A stretch of 64,000 nt of DNA from NCBI RefSeq assembly GCF_003201675.2, contig NZ_CP029287.2, forward strand, positions 248,001 through 312,000, read 5' to 3'. Made by a program: the position numbers and the translations under genes. This stretch comes from Metallosphaera hakonensis JCM 8857 = DSM 7519. GTDB lineage: Archaea > Thermoproteota > Thermoprotei_A > Sulfolobales > Sulfolobaceae. Below, piece by piece: positions 4,452-39,769 of this stretch. The notes under the pieces are model-generated. The model made no database searches. It was not told the origin of the DNA and was given only the letters and a program-made list of their open reading frames with translations. Within the stretch, counting starts at the first letter, position 1; every line of letters begins with the position of its first letter.

Positions 4452-5759
4452 ATGTCCATAATTTCTCAGATAAATTTTCAGAATCCGTGGTGGACTGACA
4501 AGAACAAACTGTATGAAGATGAACAGATATCCAAGGTCCTCTCCCTGAGCCCCAAATTCATTCCACCTCCTTCAGATGAAAACCTTCTTATCCTCGGCCC
4601 CAGGCAAGTTGGTAAAACCACGTTCATGAAGACCACAATAATGAGTGCCGTGGAAAGAGGCGTTGAAAGCACCAAGATACTCTTTTTCTCGTGCGACTCG
4701 CTGAAGGAAAAGAACGACCTAATATCTCTGCTCTCACAATACAGGTCTCTAATTAACCCCGATGGTGGTTACATTCTCTTGGACGAAATAACTTTCGTGA
4801 AGGATTGGAACGTGGGACTACTCCATTTATTTAACGGTGGTTATCTTAAAAACTCCATTGTTTACGTCAGCGGATCCTCCTCCGTATCCTTAAAAAGAGA
4901 AACCCTACCCGGTAGACCCCTTAGAAAAGTGGCCTTTCTTCCCCTAAATTTTAGGATGTTTTTCGATATATATTTCAAAAAACTCGATGTGGTCTCCTCA
5001 TCTGTCATGAACGTGAGAGGTTTCTATGAGAGGGCGGTCAAGCTCGTTCCTCACATTGCAGAGCTCAATAGGGCCCTTTTGGAATACGTTAAGAGAGGGG
5101 GATTCTTCGCCACCAATTACGTTAAGGGCGATCCTCTGGATTCGTTCTACGAGACTTACAAGGACTCAGTACTCAGCGACATAGCTAAGCTCGGTAAGGA
5201 TGAGAGAACGTTTAGGGAAATAATTGAAAAAATAATCGAATCCTACGGTTCAAGAATATCCGAAAACACGATCTCCAAGGAAACGTCAATAGGCTCCCAT
5301 AACACGGTGGCCAGTTACCTGGACTTAGCTGAGAATCTGTTCCTGCTCAAAGTTTTCAGAAAAATTGAGAGTAATAAAATTAACAATAAATCGTTTAAAA
5401 AGATATATTTCGTAGATCCCTTCATTTATCGGGTTATGAAGAGGTACACGAAGGGATTGGGTACAGTGGAGGAGTCGGAGATCCCTCACATCATAGAAGG
5501 CATAGTGGGGGAGCATCTAGCGAGGGAATACGGGAGAGTGGGATACACTTTCTTCAAGGGCGGTAAGGAGGTGGATTTCGTGGTAGGGAACTTAGGGATA
5601 GAGGTTAAGTGGGGGAGAGGAGACTACAAGGACCTGAAAATGGATAGAGGATATGTTCTTACCTTCGATGATATGGAGTTGGGCGAAAACAAGGCTATAT
5701 TGCCGGTGTCAGTTTTCCTTTACCTGATGTCATCGAACAAGATATTTTACGAATTATGA
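4452..5759 (+). CDS. AAA_14/DUF4143 ATPase (archaeal ATPase, AAA+ superfamily)
   Basis: A 435-residue protein. Walker A GPRQVGKTT is near residues 49-57, Walker B YILLDEITFVKDW near 116, and a sensor-like VSGSSS follows. A winged-helix region lies near 270-300 (ISKETSIGSHNTVASYLDLA) and a C-terminal DUF4143 domain resembles PD-(D/E)XK folds (EVDFVVGNLGIEVKWG). Such proteins are abundant in Sulfolobales; their biological role is unsettled, and a link to mobile DNA or toxin-antitoxin-like behaviour has been suggested. It is monocistronic, with a striking palindrome upstream. A paralogue is at 35246-36457. Confidence 0.88.
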   Translation: MSIISQINFQNPWWTDKNKLYEDEQISKVLSLSPKFIPPPSDENLLILGPRQVGKTTFMKTTIMSAVERGVESTKILFFSCDSLKEKNDLISLLSQYRSLINPDGGYILLDEITFVKDWNVGLLHLFNGGYLKNSIVYVSGSSSVSLKRETLPGRPLRKVAFLPLNFRMFFDIYFKKLDVVSSSVMNVRGFYERAVKLVPHIAELNRALLEYVKRGGFFATNYVKGDPLDSFYETYKDSVLSDIAKLGKDERTFREIIEKIIESYGSRISENTISKETSIGSHNTVASYLDLAENLFLLKVFRKIESNKINNKSFKKIYFVDPFIYRVMKRYTKGLGTVEESEIPHIIEGIVGEHLAREYGRVGYTFFKGGKEVDFVVGNLGIEVKWGRGDYKDLKMDRGYVLTFDDMELGENKAILPVSVFLYLMSSNKIFYEL

Positions 5760-15726: not shown

Positions 15727-17523
15727 ATGCCACTACCCGTAATATTACAGGAAATCACTCAAAATTCCTTTGGCGACCTGGTTACTTCGTATAAGGAAAC
15801 GTTTAAGGAAGATCCTTCAATTGAACAGAAAAACGCGTGGAAAAAACTCCTAGAGATTTTCAATACTCTTAACACCCCTCACCCTATTATTATGGAATAT
15901 CCCATATTTACGGATAGAGTTGACGCTATTTTTGTAGATGAGAGCAAAGCTTTGATACTTGAGGCCAAGGGATGGAAACAAGCGAGACGTAAAGATGATA
16001 TCACTGTGGAATCCGATGGGGAACTACGGCTGGATCCATGCTATCAATTGAATAACTACGTAACCAAGATGAACACATTCCATTCCTCTGGGATAAGATT
16101 TGAAGGAGCTCTCTTCCTTTATAATACCAATGATTACTCCTCCTCGGAGTGCGAAGTATTAAGAAACCCCAACGATTTGAAGGTTAAACTAAAAAACTAC
16201 TCACCGAGGAGTAGACAGGACGTTGACAAAATAGTAAACGGCAAATTCGTATTAACGACGGATTTCGTCAAGTTTCTCGCTGAGACTAAGAACTTTTTAC
16301 AGCAGAGCATAGCCAAGGCAATTTTACCCTATGGTTACGGTCTAACAGAGGAGCAGGGGTTAATCTTGAGTAAAGTTTTGAATGTCCTTGAAGATAGAGC
16401 ATCCAATAAGAACTTCCTTGTGAGAGGCGGTAGTGGTTCAGGCAAAAGTCTATTGGCTATAACTCTATTTCTCGAGACCTTAAGTAGAGGTTATTTTACA
16501 ATTCTATCGTACAAGAATCAAAGGTTATTAAATTCTATAAAATTATCCTTAACTGGACTTTCATTAAATAAAACAAATGATAGAGATAAAGTGCAGGCAT
16601 TATCCCAATTTATTATGTTTTACTCAACGGGGTTTGGTTTTGGAGTGGGAGAAAGTAATTTCTCAGATTGGTTTAAGGAAAAATTCGGAGACGAAAAAAT
16701 AGACTTAGTCGTCTATGACGAGGCTCAGAGGATGACTACTAACGTAATAAAAAATTCTCCCAGGGGAAGAGTAAACGTGTATTTCTTCGATGACTTTCAG
16801 ACGTTAATAGGGAATGAGGAGGGAACTGAAGAGAACTTTAGGAGGCATTTAATCAACGTGGAGGAATATCAGTTGTCCTCATCCATAAGAGTACCTAATG
16901 ATTACCTTAATGCGGTAAAAAGCATACTTGACGGTAAGATGGTCAGGATAAAGGATTACGATCTTAGATTGTTTGATGACATTATCTCCATGCTCAACGA
17001 ATTGAGGAAGAGGAAAGAAGAAGGTAGGAAGGTTGCGTTGATTTGCAGTTTTACAGAGTCGGAGGGAGACACGAAAAATAAGACTGAGTGGAACCTGAAA
17101 AACATGAGGATAGGTTACCCATTACAATCTGGATTTGATCTTTACAAGAACGTTAATATAAGGATTAAGTGGCTTATGGACGAGAAGGTCGAATATCCTA
17201 AGTACTGGAGAGGGGAATTGGATCCTCTAGGCTACTGTGCCTCAGTATATGGTGCACAAGGTTTTGAGGCAGATTACGTTGGAGTTGTATGGGGAAGGGA
17301 TATGATTTGGAGGGATTCTTGGACTGTTGATCCGAGTCCAATTACAGATTACGTAGGTGGGGGGAACTCCTTGAGTAAAATAGCGAAAAGAGATAAGGAC
17401 AGAGCACTAAAACTACTGAAGAACAGATATTACGTCATGTTAACAAGGGGTATTAGAGGAGTCTATATCTTCTTCGAGGATTATCAGACCGGAGAAAAAA
17501 TGAAGCAGTTAATCAACGTTTAG
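15727..17523 (+). CDS. Nuclease-helicase fusion: PD-(D/E)XK-like N-terminus with DUF2075 helicase
   Basis: A 598-residue protein. Residues ~55-85 (TDRVDAIFVDESKALILEAKG) look like a PD-(D/E)XK core: D66, then E79-A-K81. Residues ~205-598 are a DUF2075-type SF1 helicase: Walker A GGSGSGKS (234-241), Walker B VVYDEAQ (~328-334), motif V VYGAQGFEADYVGVVWGRDM and motif VI YVMLTRGIRGVYIFFED. Similar fusions are known in bacterial defence loci. It converges with the Csx1 gene 344 bp downstream, with one small frame between. I infer nucleic-acid degradation in anti-mobile-element defence; a DNA-repair role is the alternative. Confidence 0.8.
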   Translation: MPLPVILQEITQNSFGDLVTSYKETFKEDPSIEQKNAWKKLLEIFNTLNTPHPIIMEYPIFTDRVDAIFVDESKALILEAKGWKQARRKDDITVESDGELRLDPCYQLNNYVTKMNTFHSSGIRFEGALFLYNTNDYSSSECEVLRNPNDLKVKLKNYSPRSRQDVDKIVNGKFVLTTDFVKFLAETKNFLQQSIAKAILPYGYGLTEEQGLILSKVLNVLEDRASNKNFLVRGGSGSGKSLLAITLFLETLSRGYFTILSYKNQRLLNSIKLSLTGLSLNKTNDRDKVQALSQFIMFYSTGFGFGVGESNFSDWFKEKFGDEKIDLVVYDEAQRMTTNVIKNSPRGRVNVYFFDDFQTLIGNEEGTEENFRRHLINVEEYQLSSSIRVPNDYLNAVKSILDGKMVRIKDYDLRLFDDIISMLNELRKRKEEGRKVALICSFTESEGDTKNKTEWNLKNMRIGYPLQSGFDLYKNVNIRIKWLMDEKVEYPKYWRGELDPLGYCASVYGAQGFEADYVGVVWGRDMIWRDSWTVDPSPITDYVGGGNSLSKIAKRDKDRALKLLKNRYYVMLTRGIRGVYIFFEDYQTGEKMKQLINV

Positions 17524-17867: not shown

Positions 17868-19352
17868 TCATTTTCCATGTTCTAAAATTTTCTTCACGCT
17901 CTCCCAGTTGTCGTAACTAAGACTTATCTCGAGCTCCTCGTCCTTGAGTTTATGGCACTCGACACAAACATAATCCCTTAAAAGTCCAGCATGTGCTCTC
18001 ATGTTCCGCTCAGCCTTATCAAGATTTTCGTCTTTCCCCTCTGTCGTTTCTTGGTTTCCTCCATATTTAATTATCTCAGTGTATTTAAATTTGTATACTT
18101 CCCGTATTTTGTCTCCTTTTTCCATAAGCTCTTTGATCTTTAAAGATACGCCGCGATACAAATTATTTAGCTCATATTCAATAATGTCCTTCGCCGTTTC
18201 AGAGACCAGGCCGTATACCTCATCTTTCAATCTCAGAAGGACTTCGTAACTTACTGGGAAAACCAAGCTCTTTCCAAATTTCTCCATCAAGACGTCAATT
18301 AGGAAAGCCATGTAAGTACTATCAAGCTTTTTGTAATCTTGTTGCTCAAGATTATATTTTATTTCTAAACCATTAGCTTGTAATAACTTGATTCTCTTAT
18401 ATGCAGAACGGGCATCTAGGGTCCATGAGTTGTTGGAGTTCCTCAATTCCGACATGACGTATATTAGGGCCAAGGGGGAGTTTAGGCTTAACGCTCTATA
18501 AACAGGTCTCTGACCCTTATTAAATACCTTAACATCTCTTATACCAACTCTGTCCCAAGTGGCCACCTTAGTAACTAGATACTCCTCGGTAGATTTCATT
18601 ATGGCGTTCCAAAACTCCACGTTTACTCTACCTCCGATCTTTATGGATAAAAATCCAGCGAGGTCTCTGGCCAACTCGGTTGTCATAATTGCAAAGTAAT
18701 TGATTCCATGGGTGGTGTCCACAACAATCTTCACGGGTCTATTATTTGAGTTATTGCTTTCAGCGGGTTCCCGGCTCCCGTTCTTCACCGCATTTTCGTA
18801 CAGGGACATCAATGCCATTGAATACATAAAATCGTAATTGGATGAGGACGAAAACCTGAGATAAGATCCATCTTGAGATGACTTCCTAATTACCGTGATG
18901 TTTGAAGGTACGACAATTACCTGCGTTTTCCTCCTTATCCCCTGGCCTCTTAAGATACACTGGACATAATCCTGAATTGTTTTCACAAGGTCTTCGTATG
19001 TTGATGGGGGTTCTTGAAGCCAGATTAACTTTCCGCTGTCATGAGTTTCATATGCCTTAACCTGTTGGGCGCAATTAACAACGATACCATCAATGTCTCT
19101 CTTGGGATTTGTGAAAAGAACCGAGTCCTGAACTAATATATAGAACGTTTCTATGTCATTTTGGTTATCATTTTTGTTATTATAATGCTTGTCAAAGAAA
19201 CTCACGGAACTCAGGGATCTTATTTTCTTCTCTTCATCCTGATAATGTATATAATCTACTGGTCTCCAACCAGATGGATCCCCCCAAGAGGCAATGTATA
19301 TTCTCATAATATTAAGTTCAGAAAATTGATTATAAAAATTTTGTAGTTCCAT
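17868..19352 (-). CDS. csx1: Csx1-like CARF-HEPN ribonuclease
   Basis: A 494-residue protein; the start may instead be Met16 (19307), where the first CARF strand MRIYIASWGDPSGW begins. The N-terminal half is a CARF domain with the ligand-loop motif VDTTHGINYF (residues 211-220). The C-terminal HEPN domain has the R-x4-H active site RNMRAH (449-454). Csx1 enzymes are activated by cyclic tetra-adenylate from type III CRISPR Cas10 and cut RNA non-specifically. No CRISPR array or cas gene is in view, so it must respond to a second messenger made elsewhere. It converges with the nuclease-helicase gene. Confidence 0.9.
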   Translation of the reverse strand: MELQNFYNQFSELNIMRIYIASWGDPSGWRPVDYIHYQDEEKKIRSLSSVSFFDKHYNNKNDNQNDIETFYILVQDSVLFTNPKRDIDGIVVNCAQQVKAYETHDSGKLIWLQEPPSTYEDLVKTIQDYVQCILRGQGIRRKTQVIVVPSNITVIRKSSQDGSYLRFSSSSNYDFMYSMALMSLYENAVKNGSREPAESNNSNNRPVKIVVDTTHGINYFAIMTTELARDLAGFLSIKIGGRVNVEFWNAIMKSTEEYLVTKVATWDRVGIRDVKVFNKGQRPVYRALSLNSPLALIYVMSELRNSNNSWTLDARSAYKRIKLLQANGLEIKYNLEQQDYKKLDSTYMAFLIDVLMEKFGKSLVFPVSYEVLLRLKDEVYGLVSETAKDIIEYELNNLYRGVSLKIKELMEKGDKIREVYKFKYTEIIKYGGNQETTEGKDENLDKAERNMRAHAGLLRDYVCVECHKLKDEELEISLSYDNWESVKKILEHGK

Positions 19353-30636: not shown

Positions 30637-30791
30637 GGACGATTCGTGTATTTTTGTGAGTTATAACGTTTCATCTATCCTGATATAATTAATTAAAATA
30701 ATGTCAGGAATAAATTCGATTAAATTGAACTCCTATTCTCACGTGAATTTTAGATTGAAACCTTTTATACCAGGTGGAGAAAGTAGAAATT

Positions 30792-31025
30792 ATGGAAACA
30801 ATAAAAGTTAACGCGGAGACTAAGAAACGGCTTACGAAAATTGCGGGTATTTTGGAAAAAAAGACCGGAAAGAGGGTTTCGTATGATGACGTCATAAATT
30901 ACCTTATTGACAGAAGAGAAGTGAACAAAAAATACGCAAGAAAGCTATTTGGAATAGCGAAAGGACTTGATCTATATGACGAGTTAATTAAAGGGCGTAC
31001 CGAGGATGAAAAAGGTAGTCCTTGA
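30792..31025 (+). CDS. vapB: VapB-like antitoxin
   Basis: A 77-residue protein from the ATG at 30792 (an upstream GTG at 30774 is also possible). METIKVNAETKKRLTKIAGI and KRVSYDDVINYLIDR form a CopG/RHH-like N-terminal DNA-binding unit; the C-terminus (ELIKGRTEDEKGSP) would wrap the toxin. It overlaps vapC by 20 bp. It binds and neutralises the partner PIN RNase and likely represses the operon. Confidence 0.85.
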   Translation: METIKVNAETKKRLTKIAGILEKKTGKRVSYDDVINYLIDRREVNKKYARKLFGIAKGLDLYDELIKGRTEDEKGSP

Positions 31026-31392
31026 CAGTGGAGTTGTTTTGTCTTTCCTTGAGGGAAAATTCGGTGATTACTATCAGAGGATCCTCAATGAGGAACTCGA
31101 ACCCTATATAAGTACAATGAATCTCACAGAAATCTATTACGTACTTTGTAGAAAAATGGGAGGAGAAAAAGCGGAGAAATTGATGAAGATGTTAGTTAAA
31201 TCAGGTCTGAGGATAGTAGGAGTGAAACCAAGGATCATGAAGTATGCGGCGGAATGTAAGTGCCATAATTCGATCTCCATGGGAGATTGCTTCTCAATAG
31301 CTACGGCAAAGTATCTAAAAACGACAGCAGTATTTAAGAGAGAAAAGGAACTAGAAGATAAAAAGATAGGAAACGTAGAGTTTATAGATTAA
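31006..31392 (+). CDS. vapC: VapC-like PIN-domain toxin RNase
   Basis: A 128-residue PIN protein. Acidic active-site residues: D7 in VVLDSGVVLSF, E in NLTEIYYVL, D in ISMGDCFSIATAK and the C-terminal acidic residues near KREKELED. Family members cut tRNA or rRNA. It overlaps the antitoxin by 20 bp. Length is normal. Confidence 0.9.
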   Translation: MKKVVLDSGVVLSFLEGKFGDYYQRILNEELEPYISTMNLTEIYYVLCRKMGGEKAEKLMKMLVKSGLRIVGVKPRIMKYAAECKCHNSISMGDCFSIATAKYLKTTAVFKREKELEDKKIGNVEFID

Positions 31393-33040: not shown

Positions 33041-33376
33041 GTACCGGGACTGTGGGATTGTTGTATTTTGTTACCCTTTCGGAGTTTAAAATCTCGAGCG
33101 AGGGCTGTGGGGCCATTCAAGGTTCCATTGCGAATTGTAATTACAGCAAAAATCGATCAAATAAAGGAAATTGTTAAGCGTGAATACTTCCATAGTCCAT
33201 ACGAGAGCATTCAATTAAATTCATTCCATTTCTTTAAATGAACTGAATTAGTAAAGGGGACGTGAATCACCGAGGCCGTGTTGATTGGAGAGAACTCCCT
33301 CAAACGAGCCCTCACTTTAGGGATTACAACATATAGAGAAAGAGTGATATAATTTTACAAATATATTTCAAATAAC
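33041..33376. other. Intergenic with repeat R4 and an IS1 TIR relic
   Basis: 33109-33271 is an R4 copy. From about 33372 the sequence AACATGACTGCACGAGAACG then CTCCCCC matches the right TIR of the IS1-family element (GATGACTGCATGAGAACACT then CCCC), so the next gene opens inside, or just after, an IS end. Confidence 0.6.
33109..33271. repeat. Dispersed repeat, family R4, copy 2
   Basis: GGGGCCATTCAAGGTTCC at the left and GGACGTGAATCACCG at the right. Interior GCGAATTGTAATTACAGC and CATTCAATTAAATTCATT match the copy at 23572-23736. Confidence 0.6.
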
Positions 33377-34678
33377 ATGACTGCACGAGAACGCTCCCCC
33401 AACAGGCCCCATATTTATAATTCTTTTTCCTTAACTCTACCCATGATCTTAGCTACAATGGGTTCCAACAAATCCGTGACCACAATGAACGCTATCATGA
33501 CTGAGGTTTTCACGGGTTTGAAACCCGAAAAAATCAGAATTTACAGGGAAGATTCCAACCTACTTGGAGAGAGTAAGAAAACCTTGGAGAAGGCTCTCTC
33601 CATCCTGGGCATCCGAGCGGAAGTGGAGGAGAAGGTGGTGGGGGAAGACCTCAGGACATGGAAGGAAGTCCTCTCCAGGGACCAAGTTGACGTTTTCGAT
33701 GTGACTCCGGGGAGGAAATACATGGCCATAGCAGGGACTTACTCTCACGGGAACTCAGTTAGATACGTCTACATTAAGGAAGAGGTTGAGGGATATCGCA
33801 TTTTCGGATACATACCTTTCTCTAGGGTAAAGGTTCTCGACGTGAGGAGTGGGGAGAAGGTTGAATTGGATAGGCTTTCGACCCTAGACGCGGATCCCCA
33901 CTCTAGGCTAGAAAGGGACTCTTTGACGGCCCTCTATAATATCCTGGCAATTCATGGTAAAGTAGAAGTTGATGAAGGAGCTTCTAAAGATGATCGTGAA
34001 GACTACGTAGAGCTATGTAAAATGAGGGCCGGAGGGATCAGGTTCAGAGAGGAGGAGGAAATTAGGAAATTTAGGGGAAGTCTGTTCATCGCCGATACCA
34101 ACACCTACATAAACATCGGCCCTAGATTGAGGGATCTGGTTAACTCCAGGAAAATTAACTTACTTGCCTCGAAGACAGTCTTCGACGAGTTGGTGGGGAA
34201 AGTGGTGTCGGGAAGTAAGGATCCCAAGTTATGGAAGTTCTCGCTGGGGGTCGAGAGTTATCGAGATATCCATAAGATTCCCTTTACGAAAGGAGGACAG
34301 AGTTACGGCGATAGGAGCCTTATCGAGGAAATAAGGAACATTAAGTCTAACGTCCAGGATCAGGTCATCCTTTTAACAGGGGACAGGGAGTTGAGCACTA
34401 AGGCCTCCACCTTGGGGATAAAGACTATCTTCCTGTCACAGGAAACGCAGGGCCACATGGATTACGGGGAATATATCTATTGCTTAAGTAGAAGTGGGAG
34501 AGGACTACGTAAACCGACAATTTCCGTTGACGGAAAGGATGTGGTGGAGATCAGGGAAAATCCGGGTACTGAGCTAGGGATTACCCAGGTCGTGACCAAG
34601 GATATGAGATACAACTTCGCTAAAGTCCTGGAGTTACTGCAGGAGATCATGAGAAGAGATCAGGGAACCTCATCCTAG
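33377..34678 (+). CDS. CARF-PIN protein: ligand-sensing domain fused to a PIN nuclease
   Basis: A 433-residue frame. Residues 22-116 (MILATMGSNKSV ... VDVFDVTPGRKYMAIAG) look like a CARF/Rossmann sensor; D-x-T-x-G-x-K is the hallmark loop. Residues ~236-355 are a PIN domain: SLFIADTNTYINIG (D240), FDELVG (E271), SYGDRSL (D312) and ILLTGDRELSTKA (D336). CARF-PIN fusions are known as type III CRISPR ancillary proteins; here none of the other parts is in view. The first ~16 residues come from an IS1-TIR-like sequence, so the true start may be Met23 (33443) or Met28 (33458). Expected action: RNA cleavage on cyclic oligonucleotide binding. Confidence 0.75.
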   Translation: MTARERSPNRPHIYNSFSLTLPMILATMGSNKSVTTMNAIMTEVFTGLKPEKIRIYREDSNLLGESKKTLEKALSILGIRAEVEEKVVGEDLRTWKEVLSRDQVDVFDVTPGRKYMAIAGTYSHGNSVRYVYIKEEVEGYRIFGYIPFSRVKVLDVRSGEKVELDRLSTLDADPHSRLERDSLTALYNILAIHGKVEVDEGASKDDREDYVELCKMRAGGIRFREEEEIRKFRGSLFIADTNTYINIGPRLRDLVNSRKINLLASKTVFDELVGKVVSGSKDPKLWKFSLGVESYRDIHKIPFTKGGQSYGDRSLIEEIRNIKSNVQDQVILLTGDRELSTKASTLGIKTIFLSQETQGHMDYGEYIYCLSRSGRGLRKPTISVDGKDVVEIRENPGTELGITQVVTKDMRYNFAKVLELLQEIMRRDQGTSS

Positions 34679-35245: not shown

Positions 35246-36457
35246 GTGAGTGAAATAAAACAGATTCTGCTGGATCAGAGAACGAGGATTGAGAGGAAAT
35301 TTGAAAAAGAAAAGATCATAGAGAGAGACATTCCTGATCTAAACAAGTACATCTCGCATCCCAACGTCCTGGCCATATTGGGGGTCAGGAGATGCGGTAA
35401 ATCTACCCTCGCGGAAACGTTGTTGAGAGGGAGGAACTTCGGCTACGTCAACTTCGACGACGATAGGTTGGCGGGCATTAAATTGGAGGACCTATCTCGG
35501 ATCGAAAAGGCAATCTATGAGCTATTTGGTGAGGTAGAATACTTCCTCCTGGACGAGATCCACAACGTTGATGGTTGGGAGCTCTTCGTAAACAGACTCA
35601 GGGAGGAGGGGAAAAAGGTCGTAGTCACAGGGAGTAATTCCAAATTGCTCTCAGGGGAGTTAGCTACAGCGTTGACGGGAAGGCACATTGACTTCACTCT
35701 CTATCCTTTCTCCTTCTTAGAATATTTGAGGTTCAAAGGGATTAAGGTTGAGATGAGCAACGACGTTTACACTACCACGTCGGAGACAAACATCAAGAGG
35801 GAGTTAGAAAACTACATGAAGATTGGAGGCTTCCCCGAGGCATTGAAAATCTCGGAGGACATGGTTTTCTCCATTTTCTCAGACATAGTGTACAAGGACG
35901 TCGTTTCGAGACTGAAGATAAAGAGGATGGAACTTTTTAAGTTGTTCGCAGTAAACCTGCTGAAATACTACTCCAATGAAGTTTCCCTATCTAAACTCTC
36001 CAAGACTTTGAAAGTGAGCATCAACACCGTGGAGGAGTGGTTCCACGGATTAGTCAACTCTTACGCAGTGATAACTTCAGAGAGGTACACTCAAAAGCCC
36101 AGAGAGGCCATGGTCTCCCCAAAGAAGATTTACGTCGTAGATCCCTCGTTCATATCTTCCATCGCCTTGGATAGCTCCGTGGGAAGGACCATGGAGAACC
36201 TAGTGGCGCTACGCCTTGCGATGAGAGGGGAGAAGTTGTTCTACATCAAGGGGAGTAACTACGAAGTGGATTTCCTAACGCATGGTACTGCGATTCAGGT
36301 TACCTACGCCTCAGGTAAAGACGAAGTCCCGAGGAGGGAAATTGATGGACTAAACAACGTGAGAGCCAAGGAAAGGATCGTGATTTCGTGGGACTATGAG
36401 GACGTGGTAAATAAGGTGAAGTTTATCCCCATTTGGAAATTCTTACTTCACCCTTAG
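35246..36457 (+). CDS. AAA_14/DUF4143 ATPase, paralogue 2
   Basis: A 403-residue protein, GTG start. Walker A LGVRRCGKSTLAE is near residues 45-57, Walker B FLLDEIHNVDGWE near 98, sensor VVTGSNSKLLSG, then TGRHIDFTLYPFSFLEYLRF, the classic AAA_14 block. A wHTH-like region follows (VSLSKLSKTLKVSINTVEEW), and the C-terminal DUF4143 reads EVDFLTHGTAIQVTYASG, a degenerate nuclease-like core. Clear paralogue of 4452-5759 by architecture and by upstream palindromes. Role unproven. Confidence 0.88.
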   Translation: MSEIKQILLDQRTRIERKFEKEKIIERDIPDLNKYISHPNVLAILGVRRCGKSTLAETLLRGRNFGYVNFDDDRLAGIKLEDLSRIEKAIYELFGEVEYFLLDEIHNVDGWELFVNRLREEGKKVVVTGSNSKLLSGELATALTGRHIDFTLYPFSFLEYLRFKGIKVEMSNDVYTTTSETNIKRELENYMKIGGFPEALKISEDMVFSIFSDIVYKDVVSRLKIKRMELFKLFAVNLLKYYSNEVSLSKLSKTLKVSINTVEEWFHGLVNSYAVITSERYTQKPREAMVSPKKIYVVDPSFISSIALDSSVGRTMENLVALRLAMRGEKLFYIKGSNYEVDFLTHGTAIQVTYASGKDEVPRREIDGLNNVRAKERIVISWDYEDVVNKVKFIPIWKFLLHP

Positions 36458-37794: not shown

Positions 37795-37938
37795 TACAAA
37801 TTGTAATTATGGCTGGGACAGCTTGGTTAAGGAAATTGTAAGGCTTGAATTCCTGGGTTAAACGTGAGGAGTGTTCGACTAAATTTGCTCTTTCCTTTAA
37901 ATGAACTGAATTCTTGATGAGGAAGTAGATCGCCCCGT
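37795..37938. repeat. Dispersed repeat, family R4, copy 3 (left end decayed)
   Basis: ACAAATTGTAATTATGGC, GAAATTGTAAGGCTTGAATT, CTTTAAATGAACTGAATT and the right end AGTAGATCGCCCCG match the copies at 23572 and 33109. Confidence 0.55.
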
Positions 37939-37954
37939 TCATAAGTTAAGATCC

Positions 37955-38482
37955 TCACTCACTGCCCTCCATTAATTCCTTAATTAATCTTTCTATCTTT
38001 TCCGATATCTCCTTAATCTCATATTTTGGGAAATATGTGTACATGATGTTTCTAGTCTCCCTTACGACGGTAATTAGGTCACTAAATACGTCCTCTTTCC
38101 TATTATAAATGCTAAAGCCCGGCTCAAAGCCATTGTACTGATACTGGTGAAGGTCCAATACCATCCTCACAAGGTTTACAATATCAACTCCAATCTTCCT
38201 CAGTATTTGTGCTAACGCATACATGCTTTGGGTTGGTACAATGTGGGCTTTCTTCTTAATCCATTCTTTCTCTTCATCACTCTTAGCTAGATTAACCAAC
38301 TTCTCTTCATTAATAACTACTAGAGCACTTAATAACGCCCTTACAGCACTGAAGGCCTTTCCTGCGGAATTCCTAGTATATCCCCATTTCCACAAAGTAA
38401 GTGAAAGGAGGAGATCAGACAAACTCTCAACAACTCTAGCCTCGACGTACTCCTCTCCCACCGTGTAAAGATCCTTCTCCAT
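37955..38482 (-). CDS. PaREP1-like helical protein
   Basis: A 175-residue all-alpha protein. Residues ~20-75 (LSLTLWKWGYTRNSAGKAFS, AVRALLSALVV) resemble the PaREP1 family of crenarchaea, thought to be HEPN-related. No R-x4-6-H site is clear. The start is 7 bp from the TSD of the IS1-family element, so the IS landed in its promoter. Function unknown. Confidence 0.55.
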   Translation of the reverse strand: MEKDLYTVGEEYVEARVVESLSDLLLSLTLWKWGYTRNSAGKAFSAVRALLSALVVINEEKLVNLAKSDEEKEWIKKKAHIVPTQSMYALAQILRKIGVDIVNLVRMVLDLHQYQYNGFEPGFSIYNRKEDVFSDLITVVRETRNIMYTYFPKYEIKEISEKIERLIKELMEGSE

Positions 38483-38497
38483 AACTATTCATTTCCT

Positions 38498-39671
38498 GGG
38501 AGTGTTCTCATGCAGTCATCTTATTCGATAACTACCTGTAAAATTATATCAGATGTTCTCTAATATGCTGTACTCCCCTCAAATAGGCCAGGTTCAAGGG
38601 AGTCTCCTCGTCCGAGAAAACATGCGGGTTCATGACGTTCAACAGGGCCAGGCTGTAGTCCGTCATCCCTCTGCTCCTGTTGACGGCCTTCGTGTCCCTG
38701 GCTAGCCGAGCTAAGTGCGACCTACAGAACGAGTTGTAACTCTCCGCGGTGTGGGTGTACTTCTTGCCCACGACGTGGTGATCTAGGACTTGATAGATTG
38801 AGTAGGCGTCGGTGTAGTGGACCTCGCACTTGGGAAGAGAACTCCAGAGGAAGCGGAAGGTGTTGTAGTCCCTGTCGCCGGTGACGAAGAAGGGAACTCC
38901 GTCGACCAGGGCGTTCCAGATCCAGAGGTTCTGTCGTCTAGGACCGCGTCTCACGTGTACGTAAGTCCAGCTCTCGTCTAGAACCGCGAACTTCGCCCTG
39001 AAGGCCTTCAATTGGGCTTGCAGGATCAACAGGTTAACGTAGGCCTTCAAGCCGGCCCTCTTCACTAAGCTGTAGACCGTGGTCAAGGGCCTTCCCTCAA
39101 CCTTGGATATTCCCCTCAAGCTCATCCTGTTGGTGTACTCCTTCAAGATTCTCTCCCTCTGCTCCCTGCTCATCCTGTGACTCGCAGTTCCGTAAAAGGT
39201 CCTCCCGCAGACCTTACACCTGTACTTGCTCTTCCCTCTTGACGAACCGTTCCTGACCACGCGGTCCGAGTTGCAGGACGGACATCTCGGCCTCGCGTCC
39301 TTCCTCCTCTTGATCCCGAGTTTCTTGATGTAATAATACAAAGTGGAGGGCGGTATCTTGAGCTTGGTGACCTGCACTCCCATCACGTAAGCCGCGAGGG
39401 CGAAGGCGATTTCCTCTGGTCTGTGCTTTCGGGGCTTAAGGTTTAAATTTCTTAGAACGAGAAGTATAAGTTGTGCGAGGGCTACGAGGTTCATGGCATA
39501 CACCTAAAGAACCTCGAGGTCCTCGCACATAAGTCTTTTCGATCCCACGCGTCCTCAAGTATTCAAGTCCACTCGTTGTAAGGACCACAAAAGCCCTTGA
39601 AGAGATTTCTGCCTCGCATTAATATTTTTACAGGTACTTATCGAATAAGATGACTGCATGAGAACACTCCC
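38498..39671 (-). mobile_element. IS1-family element, 1174 bp (8-bp TSD CATTTCCT)
   Basis: Near-perfect long TIRs (GGGAGTGTTCTCATGCAGTC, then ATCTTATTCGATAA). Flanked by CATTTCCT at 38490-38497 and 39672-39679. The length matches the ISC1173 type of Sulfolobales, inferred from length and transposase family only. It inserted directly upstream of the PaREP1-like gene. Confidence 0.9.
38544..39503 (-). CDS. IS1-family transposase
   Basis: A 319-residue DDE transposase; Met4 is an alternative start. An N-terminal zinc-binding InsA-like region reads CPSCNSDRVVRNGSSRGKSK then YRCKVCGRTF, followed by an HTH (GISKVEGRPLTTVYSLVKRA) and a catalytic InsB-like domain: D in FAVLDESWTYVHVR, D in EVHYTDAYSIYQ, and E in KYTHTAESYNSFCR. 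Archaeal IS1 elements encode this as one frame without the bacterial frameshift, as here. It appears intact. Confidence 0.92.
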   Translation of the reverse strand: MYAMNLVALAQLILLVLRNLNLKPRKHRPEEIAFALAAYVMGVQVTKLKIPPSTLYYYIKKLGIKRRKDARPRCPSCNSDRVVRNGSSRGKSKYRCKVCGRTFYGTASHRMSREQRERILKEYTNRMSLRGISKVEGRPLTTVYSLVKRAGLKAYVNLLILQAQLKAFRAKFAVLDESWTYVHVRRGPRRQNLWIWNALVDGVPFFVTGDRDYNTFRFLWSSLPKCEVHYTDAYSIYQVLDHHVVGKKYTHTAESYNSFCRSHLARLARDTKAVNRSRGMTDYSLALLNVMNPHVFSDEETPLNLAYLRGVQHIREHLI

Positions 39672-39769
39672 CATTTCCTGAATACACTTAAAACTATTAT
39701 TCTTATTAATGCTTTGTGAGTACTTCAATTTATTTCAAGGGAATAATATGCTATAAATAGATTTTTTAA

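Follow-up and report, generated by a model that had tools for sequence, protein, structure and literature searches.

The window analysed here, a 64-kb stretch that covers positions 248001-312000 of the complete 2.54-Mb genome of Metallosphaera hakonensis (G000), carries a gene whose product is an ordinary and well-conserved representative of an archaeal family, the CARF-PIN nucleases, that is already known and structurally characterized. We consider it very probable that this chromosomally encoded protein of the SiRe_0806 family acts in trans as an effector of type III CRISPR immunity and is produced from its own promoter and from the ATG at 33443. The analysis assigns the protein to a family for which there is a structure in complex with cyclic tetra-adenylate (cA4), corrects the start site, and removes a previously claimed fusion of the gene to an insertion sequence (IS). 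The window copy is unusual only in its distance from CRISPR loci and in the IS remnant that precedes it. The gene and the relevant parts of its product, numbered from ATG 33443, are the following.

33443-34678, + strand: CARF-PIN effector gene with the corrected start, 411 aa (profile match, PDB homologue, common start among homologues)
33443-33877, + strand: CARF domain, residues 1-145 (VIA-align rows over model residues 1-144)
33704-33727, + strand: CARF motif TPGRKYMA, residues 88-95 (in 28 sequences, T88, P89, R91, K92, M94 and A95 are invariant, and G90 and Y93 nearly so)
34073-34486, + strand: PIN domain, approximately residues 211-348 (structure matches and a weak Pfam PIN_4 hit)
34094-34096, + strand: PIN acidic residue D218, invariant (28/28)
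34187-34189, + strand: PIN acidic residue E249, invariant (28/28)
34310-34312, + strand: PIN acidic residue D290, invariant (28/28)
34382-34384, + strand: PIN acidic residue D314, invariant (28/28)

The protein matched the PADLOC profile CARF_m3--CARF_PIN (PDLC01982) over its full extent from position 1 with an E-value of 3.1e-159, and the profile CARF_PIN (PDLC01068) with an E-value of 5.8e-63; no structural difference from these families was found. Its homologue in the PDB, aligned over residues 1-405 with an E-value of 7.2e-101, is SiRe_0806 of Sulfolobus islandicus, which has been solved both in the apo form (9JXW) and with cA4 (9JXX). An AlphaFold2 model (mean pLDDT 88.8) matched these structures with Z-scores of 45-48 (best 47.6) at 44% identity. 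The two proteins agree in whole length, in the order of an N-terminal CARF and a C-terminal PIN domain, in the complete set of four acidic residues and in the CARF motif, whereas the window copy differs in its setting, since it resides in Metallosphaera, has no Crn1-like gene within 140 kb and is preceded by an IS1 remnant. Each domain was also recognizable by itself in the model. Residues 1-144 matched CARF proteins with Z-scores of 9-13, including Can2 (7bdv, 12.7), the ring nuclease Sis0455 (7z55, 11.8) and Card1 (6wxw, 11.7), with Crn1 and Csa3 also among the matches, and residues 210-338 matched PIN domains, among them those of AF0591 (1o4w, 9.4) and human SMG6 (2hww, 9.8). Pfam gave only sub-threshold PIN hits (PIN_4, a weak match with an E-value of 0.0016), and none of the NCBIfam models matched. 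Across the 28 sequences compared, the invariant positions are S8, K10, D86, T88, P89, R91, K92, M94, A95, D218, E249, D290 and D314. The initial annotation, which had recognized a DVTPGRKYM loop and a PIN domain with four acidic positions, was thus correct on both domains.

Three groups of known CARF proteins invite comparison. Csx1 and Csm6 (CARF-HEPN) are likewise ancillary type III effectors that combine a CARF sensor with a predicted ribonuclease, but their effector domain is HEPN instead of PIN. The CARF domains of Can2 and Card1 (CARF-PD-D/ExK) are among the nearest matches outside the family (Z-scores of 11-13), but their effector domain has a restriction-nuclease fold instead of PIN. 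The Crn1 ring nucleases (Sso2081, Sis0455) have the CARF fold in common with our protein (Z-scores of 11-12); however, they are standalone enzymes that destroy cA4, whereas the window protein bears a PIN effector.

The open reading frame of 433 codons from which the gene had been described is indeed present at 33377-34678, but its 5' end is not the start of the gene. The true start is almost certainly the ATG at 33443, which gives the product of 411 aa. Position 1 of the PDLC01982 profile aligns with residue 23 of the 433-aa frame, which corresponds to this ATG, and full-length homologues open with the same MILATLGS-like stretch as the reading from 33443. In most of them the frame is closed by a stop 3-20 codons before that start, and the 22-residue N-terminal extension is absent from the homologues. 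When the upstream regions of the homologues were aligned on this start, positions −28 to −25 were found to be 91-100% A+T, a composition that fits an archaeal TATA box combined with a leaderless mRNA. Judged from the sequence, the start at 33443 is probably leaderless and driven by the gene's own TATA-like box, located between the IS remnant and the ATG. Given the profile start, the homologue starts and the upstream A+T pattern, 33377 was most likely called as the start because it opens the longest ORF. This leaves two further features upstream of the gene.

33377-33442, + strand: spurious 5' extension of 22 codons, partly IS-derived and outside the gene (absent from homologues)
33414-33421, + strand: TTTATAAT, probably the native TATA box, its centre some 26 nt upstream of ATG 33443

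The gene was described initially as standalone with no CRISPR locus nearby, and this holds: neither a CRISPR array nor a cas gene, hidden or otherwise, was found in the 64-kb window, and the nearest type III module is approximately 140 kb away. Genome-wide, there are three type III modules, two Crn1-like CARF5 proteins and one Csx1. At 2.516 Mb, a Cas10 with an HD and an intact GGDD motif is accompanied by a CRISPR array and one of the Crn1-like CARF5 genes; the other CARF5 gene accompanies a Cas10 with a GGDE motif at 0.428 Mb. The third Cas10, of type III-G, is encoded near 0.14 Mb. Neither Crn1-like gene is closer than 140 kb to the CARF-PIN gene. As a separate observation, the substitution of GGDE for GGDD in the palm motif characterizes the Metallosphaera Cas10 proteins of one type III variant (L052 at G000:C1:427-430 kb, L054 and L055) and is conserved in three species. 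The Csx1 gene, which had been overlooked in the initial annotation, lies in the window itself, 14 kb from the CARF-PIN gene.

17868-19352, − strand: gene for Csx1 (CARF-HEPN), likewise a standalone effector of type III (Pfam Csx1_CARF, E-value 2e-20; Csx1_HEPN, 2.6e-5; PADLOC Csx1/Csm6, 1.4e-35)

This Csx1 would sense the same signal as the CARF-PIN protein. It is adjoined by a gene for a Schlafen-group-3 helicase (15727-17523).

Type III complexes of the Sulfolobales make cA4, which activates CARF nucleases and is degraded by Crn1 enzymes (PMC7213978, PMC7694759), and PIN RNases are listed among the effectors activated by cyclic oligoadenylates (PMC12669027). Among the papers searched, none dealt with SiRe_0806 or CARF-PIN. 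We propose that a type III Cas10 encoded elsewhere in the genome would make cA4 on meeting viral RNA, and that cA4 would bind the CARF domains of a putative CARF-PIN dimer, translated from ATG 33443 on a leaderless transcript. Binding would switch on the metal-dependent PIN active site formed by D218, E249, D290 and D314, which would then cut nucleic acid, and Crn1-like CARF proteins would presumably remove cA4 and thereby reset the response. Going by the title of entry 9JXX, members of the family would bind cA4; the PIN fold suggests that the substrate is RNA, most likely single-stranded. The profile match and the homologue solved with cA4 accordingly favour the original suggestion of a nuclease activated by a second messenger, with cA4-dependent cleavage, and its action on RNA, expected in M. 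hakonensis by analogy.

Removal of the signal could also be a task of the protein itself. Were its CARF domain to degrade cA4, a property of certain Csm6 and Csx1 proteins, the effector would act as its own timer. Some CARF nucleases do cut their own activator (PMC7694759), and the CARF-loop residues S8, K10, R91 and K92 are invariant, but these residues may serve binding only. Moreover, 29 of the 31 Sulfolobaceae genomes that we searched encode dedicated Crn1-like proteins, so that self-limitation is not needed, and we regard it as possible, though rather doubtful.

The same 31 genomes were used to establish how widespread the CARF-PIN gene is. A match was found in 29 of them, the gene being full-length in 27 and broken in only two (a fragment in G012 and a split gene in G029); the remaining two have none. 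Plasmids, phages and viral contigs contained no match. Next to the CARF-PIN gene there are cas genes in six genomes of relatives, which is not so in the genome of the window. The neighbour is a type III operon in G008, Cas6 with cas genes judged by eye to be of type I-A in G006, G009 and G019, Cas6 with a CRISPR array of 101 repeats in M. javensis (G007), and Cas1 with presumed Cas4, Cas2 and Cas6 in G329. In the protein tree the window copy is joined (98/93) with those of G006, G007 and G008, all three at CRISPR loci. Since these closest relatives, all other Metallosphaera, are found at such loci, the window copy has probably moved from a CRISPR locus; from sequence comparison, a relocation within Metallosphaera appears plausible, and nothing ties it to the IS1 remnant.

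Nearness to other genes was assessed in 23 closed genomes, which are related, so that the counts given here are not independent of each other. A Crn1-like CARF5 lies within 10 kb of the CARF-PIN gene in 5 genomes where 0.3 would be expected, and Cas6 is near it in 4 versus an expected 0.4, but for Cas10 there is no clear excess (1 versus 0.3), and its presence within 20 kb in 2 of the 23 genomes is not significant. Four genomes of genus g11 have the Crn1-like CARF5 at a distance of 2-3 kb. In most genomes the CARF-PIN gene is located away from Cas10, which, like the case of M. javensis below, counts against the proposed type III role. As the gene is near-universal in the Sulfolobaceae and yet often far from CRISPR loci, searches restricted to cas neighbourhoods will miss it.

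At least one species keeps the gene while having no detectable type III Cas10. The complete genome of M. javensis AS-7 (G007; L056, L087) has both the CARF-PIN gene and a Crn1-like gene, intact, beside the 101-repeat array. It also encodes type I-D cas genes and additional Cas6 proteins, but three models for Cas10 and one for Csm3 detected no type III system in it. Similarly, G018 has an intact copy, and a truncated Cas5 and Csm3 were all that was found of type III. Such genomes are what would be expected if the protein were an orphan nuclease that responds to a signal other than cA4 made by a Cas10; it could then be, for example, a PIN toxin triggered by another nucleotide or by a stress. Nevertheless, the homologue was crystallised with cA4, the gene is statistically near to Cas6 and Crn1-like genes, and the window's own genome encodes both Csx1 and a Cas10 with GGDD, which makes an orphan nuclease unlikely. 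For M. javensis itself, either the type III pathway was lost recently or there is another source of the signal. An extension of the latter idea, to which we give very little credence, is that CARF-PIN together with Crn1-like proteins constitutes a module for responding to cA4, which the Sulfolobaceae keep for its own sake and which in some species, such as M. javensis, receives cyclic oligoadenylate from elsewhere than a type III Cas10, for example from Cas10d of type I-D or from an unknown synthase.

We finally return to the region upstream of the gene. An IS1-family end does overlap the 5' end of the frame as originally called.

33275-33399, + strand: decayed right-end remnant of an IS1-family element, ending 44 nt upstream of ATG 33443
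33386-33388, + strand: CGA codon in place of the TGA of other IS-end copies (comparison of 16 copies that keep the ATG)

About 30 further copies of the same right end occur elsewhere in the genome. The remnant shares 81% identity with other IS ends of this genome and 80% with the end of the intact IS1 at 38498-39671, an element with 50-bp inverted repeats and a transposase. Read outward, the ends of this family carry ATG ACT GCA followed by TGA. Sixteen of the copies checked keep the ATG, and in 14 of these the fourth codon is a stop; the remnant is one of the two exceptions. The 22-codon extension is therefore open by an accident of decay, from TGA to CGA, and since the ATG borne by the IS is normally closed, the remnant is no supplier of a start codon. 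It also leaves the native TATA-like box intact. The idea that an IS end had moved the gene, or had been fused to it and provided its start, finds no support: the start lies 44 nt outside the remnant, which by all indications of the sequence is an incidental bystander. The corresponding reading, in which the IS end provides promoter and start codon for a 433-aa fusion with a 22-residue extension, can point to the ATG at 33377, inside the remnant and in frame with the gene, and to the A+T-rich, TATA-like stretch GATATAATTTTA approximately 26 nt upstream of it within the IS end, but is highly improbable in view of the unshared extension, the profile start, the native TATA-like box and the TGA that normally follows MTA. 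At most, this stretch may give rise to a minor longer transcript.

The IS1 at 38498-39671 and other IS1-family ends show the same arrangement: a TATA-like stretch is followed some 26 nt further out by an outward ATG, with TGA at the fourth codon. They are perhaps outward promoters whose translation stops at once. A composite transposon that would carry the gene between the remnant end at 33399 and the IS1 at 38498 was considered but found no support. This IS1 copy (38490-39679 including flanks) is bounded by an 8-bp target duplication of its own, CATTTCCT, and decay has gone much further in the remnant, with 80% identity to the IS1 end versus 96% between the two arms of the IS1 itself. A diverged direct repeat of approximately 105 nt occurs beside the remnant (33164-33271) and beside a PaREP1-family gene at 37955-38482 (37829-37934). 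The window also contains a VapBC-like pair of an antitoxin and a PIN toxin (30774-31392) and two AAA_14/DUF4143 ATPases (4452-5759 and 35246-36457) that match the PADLOC candidate PDC-S01.
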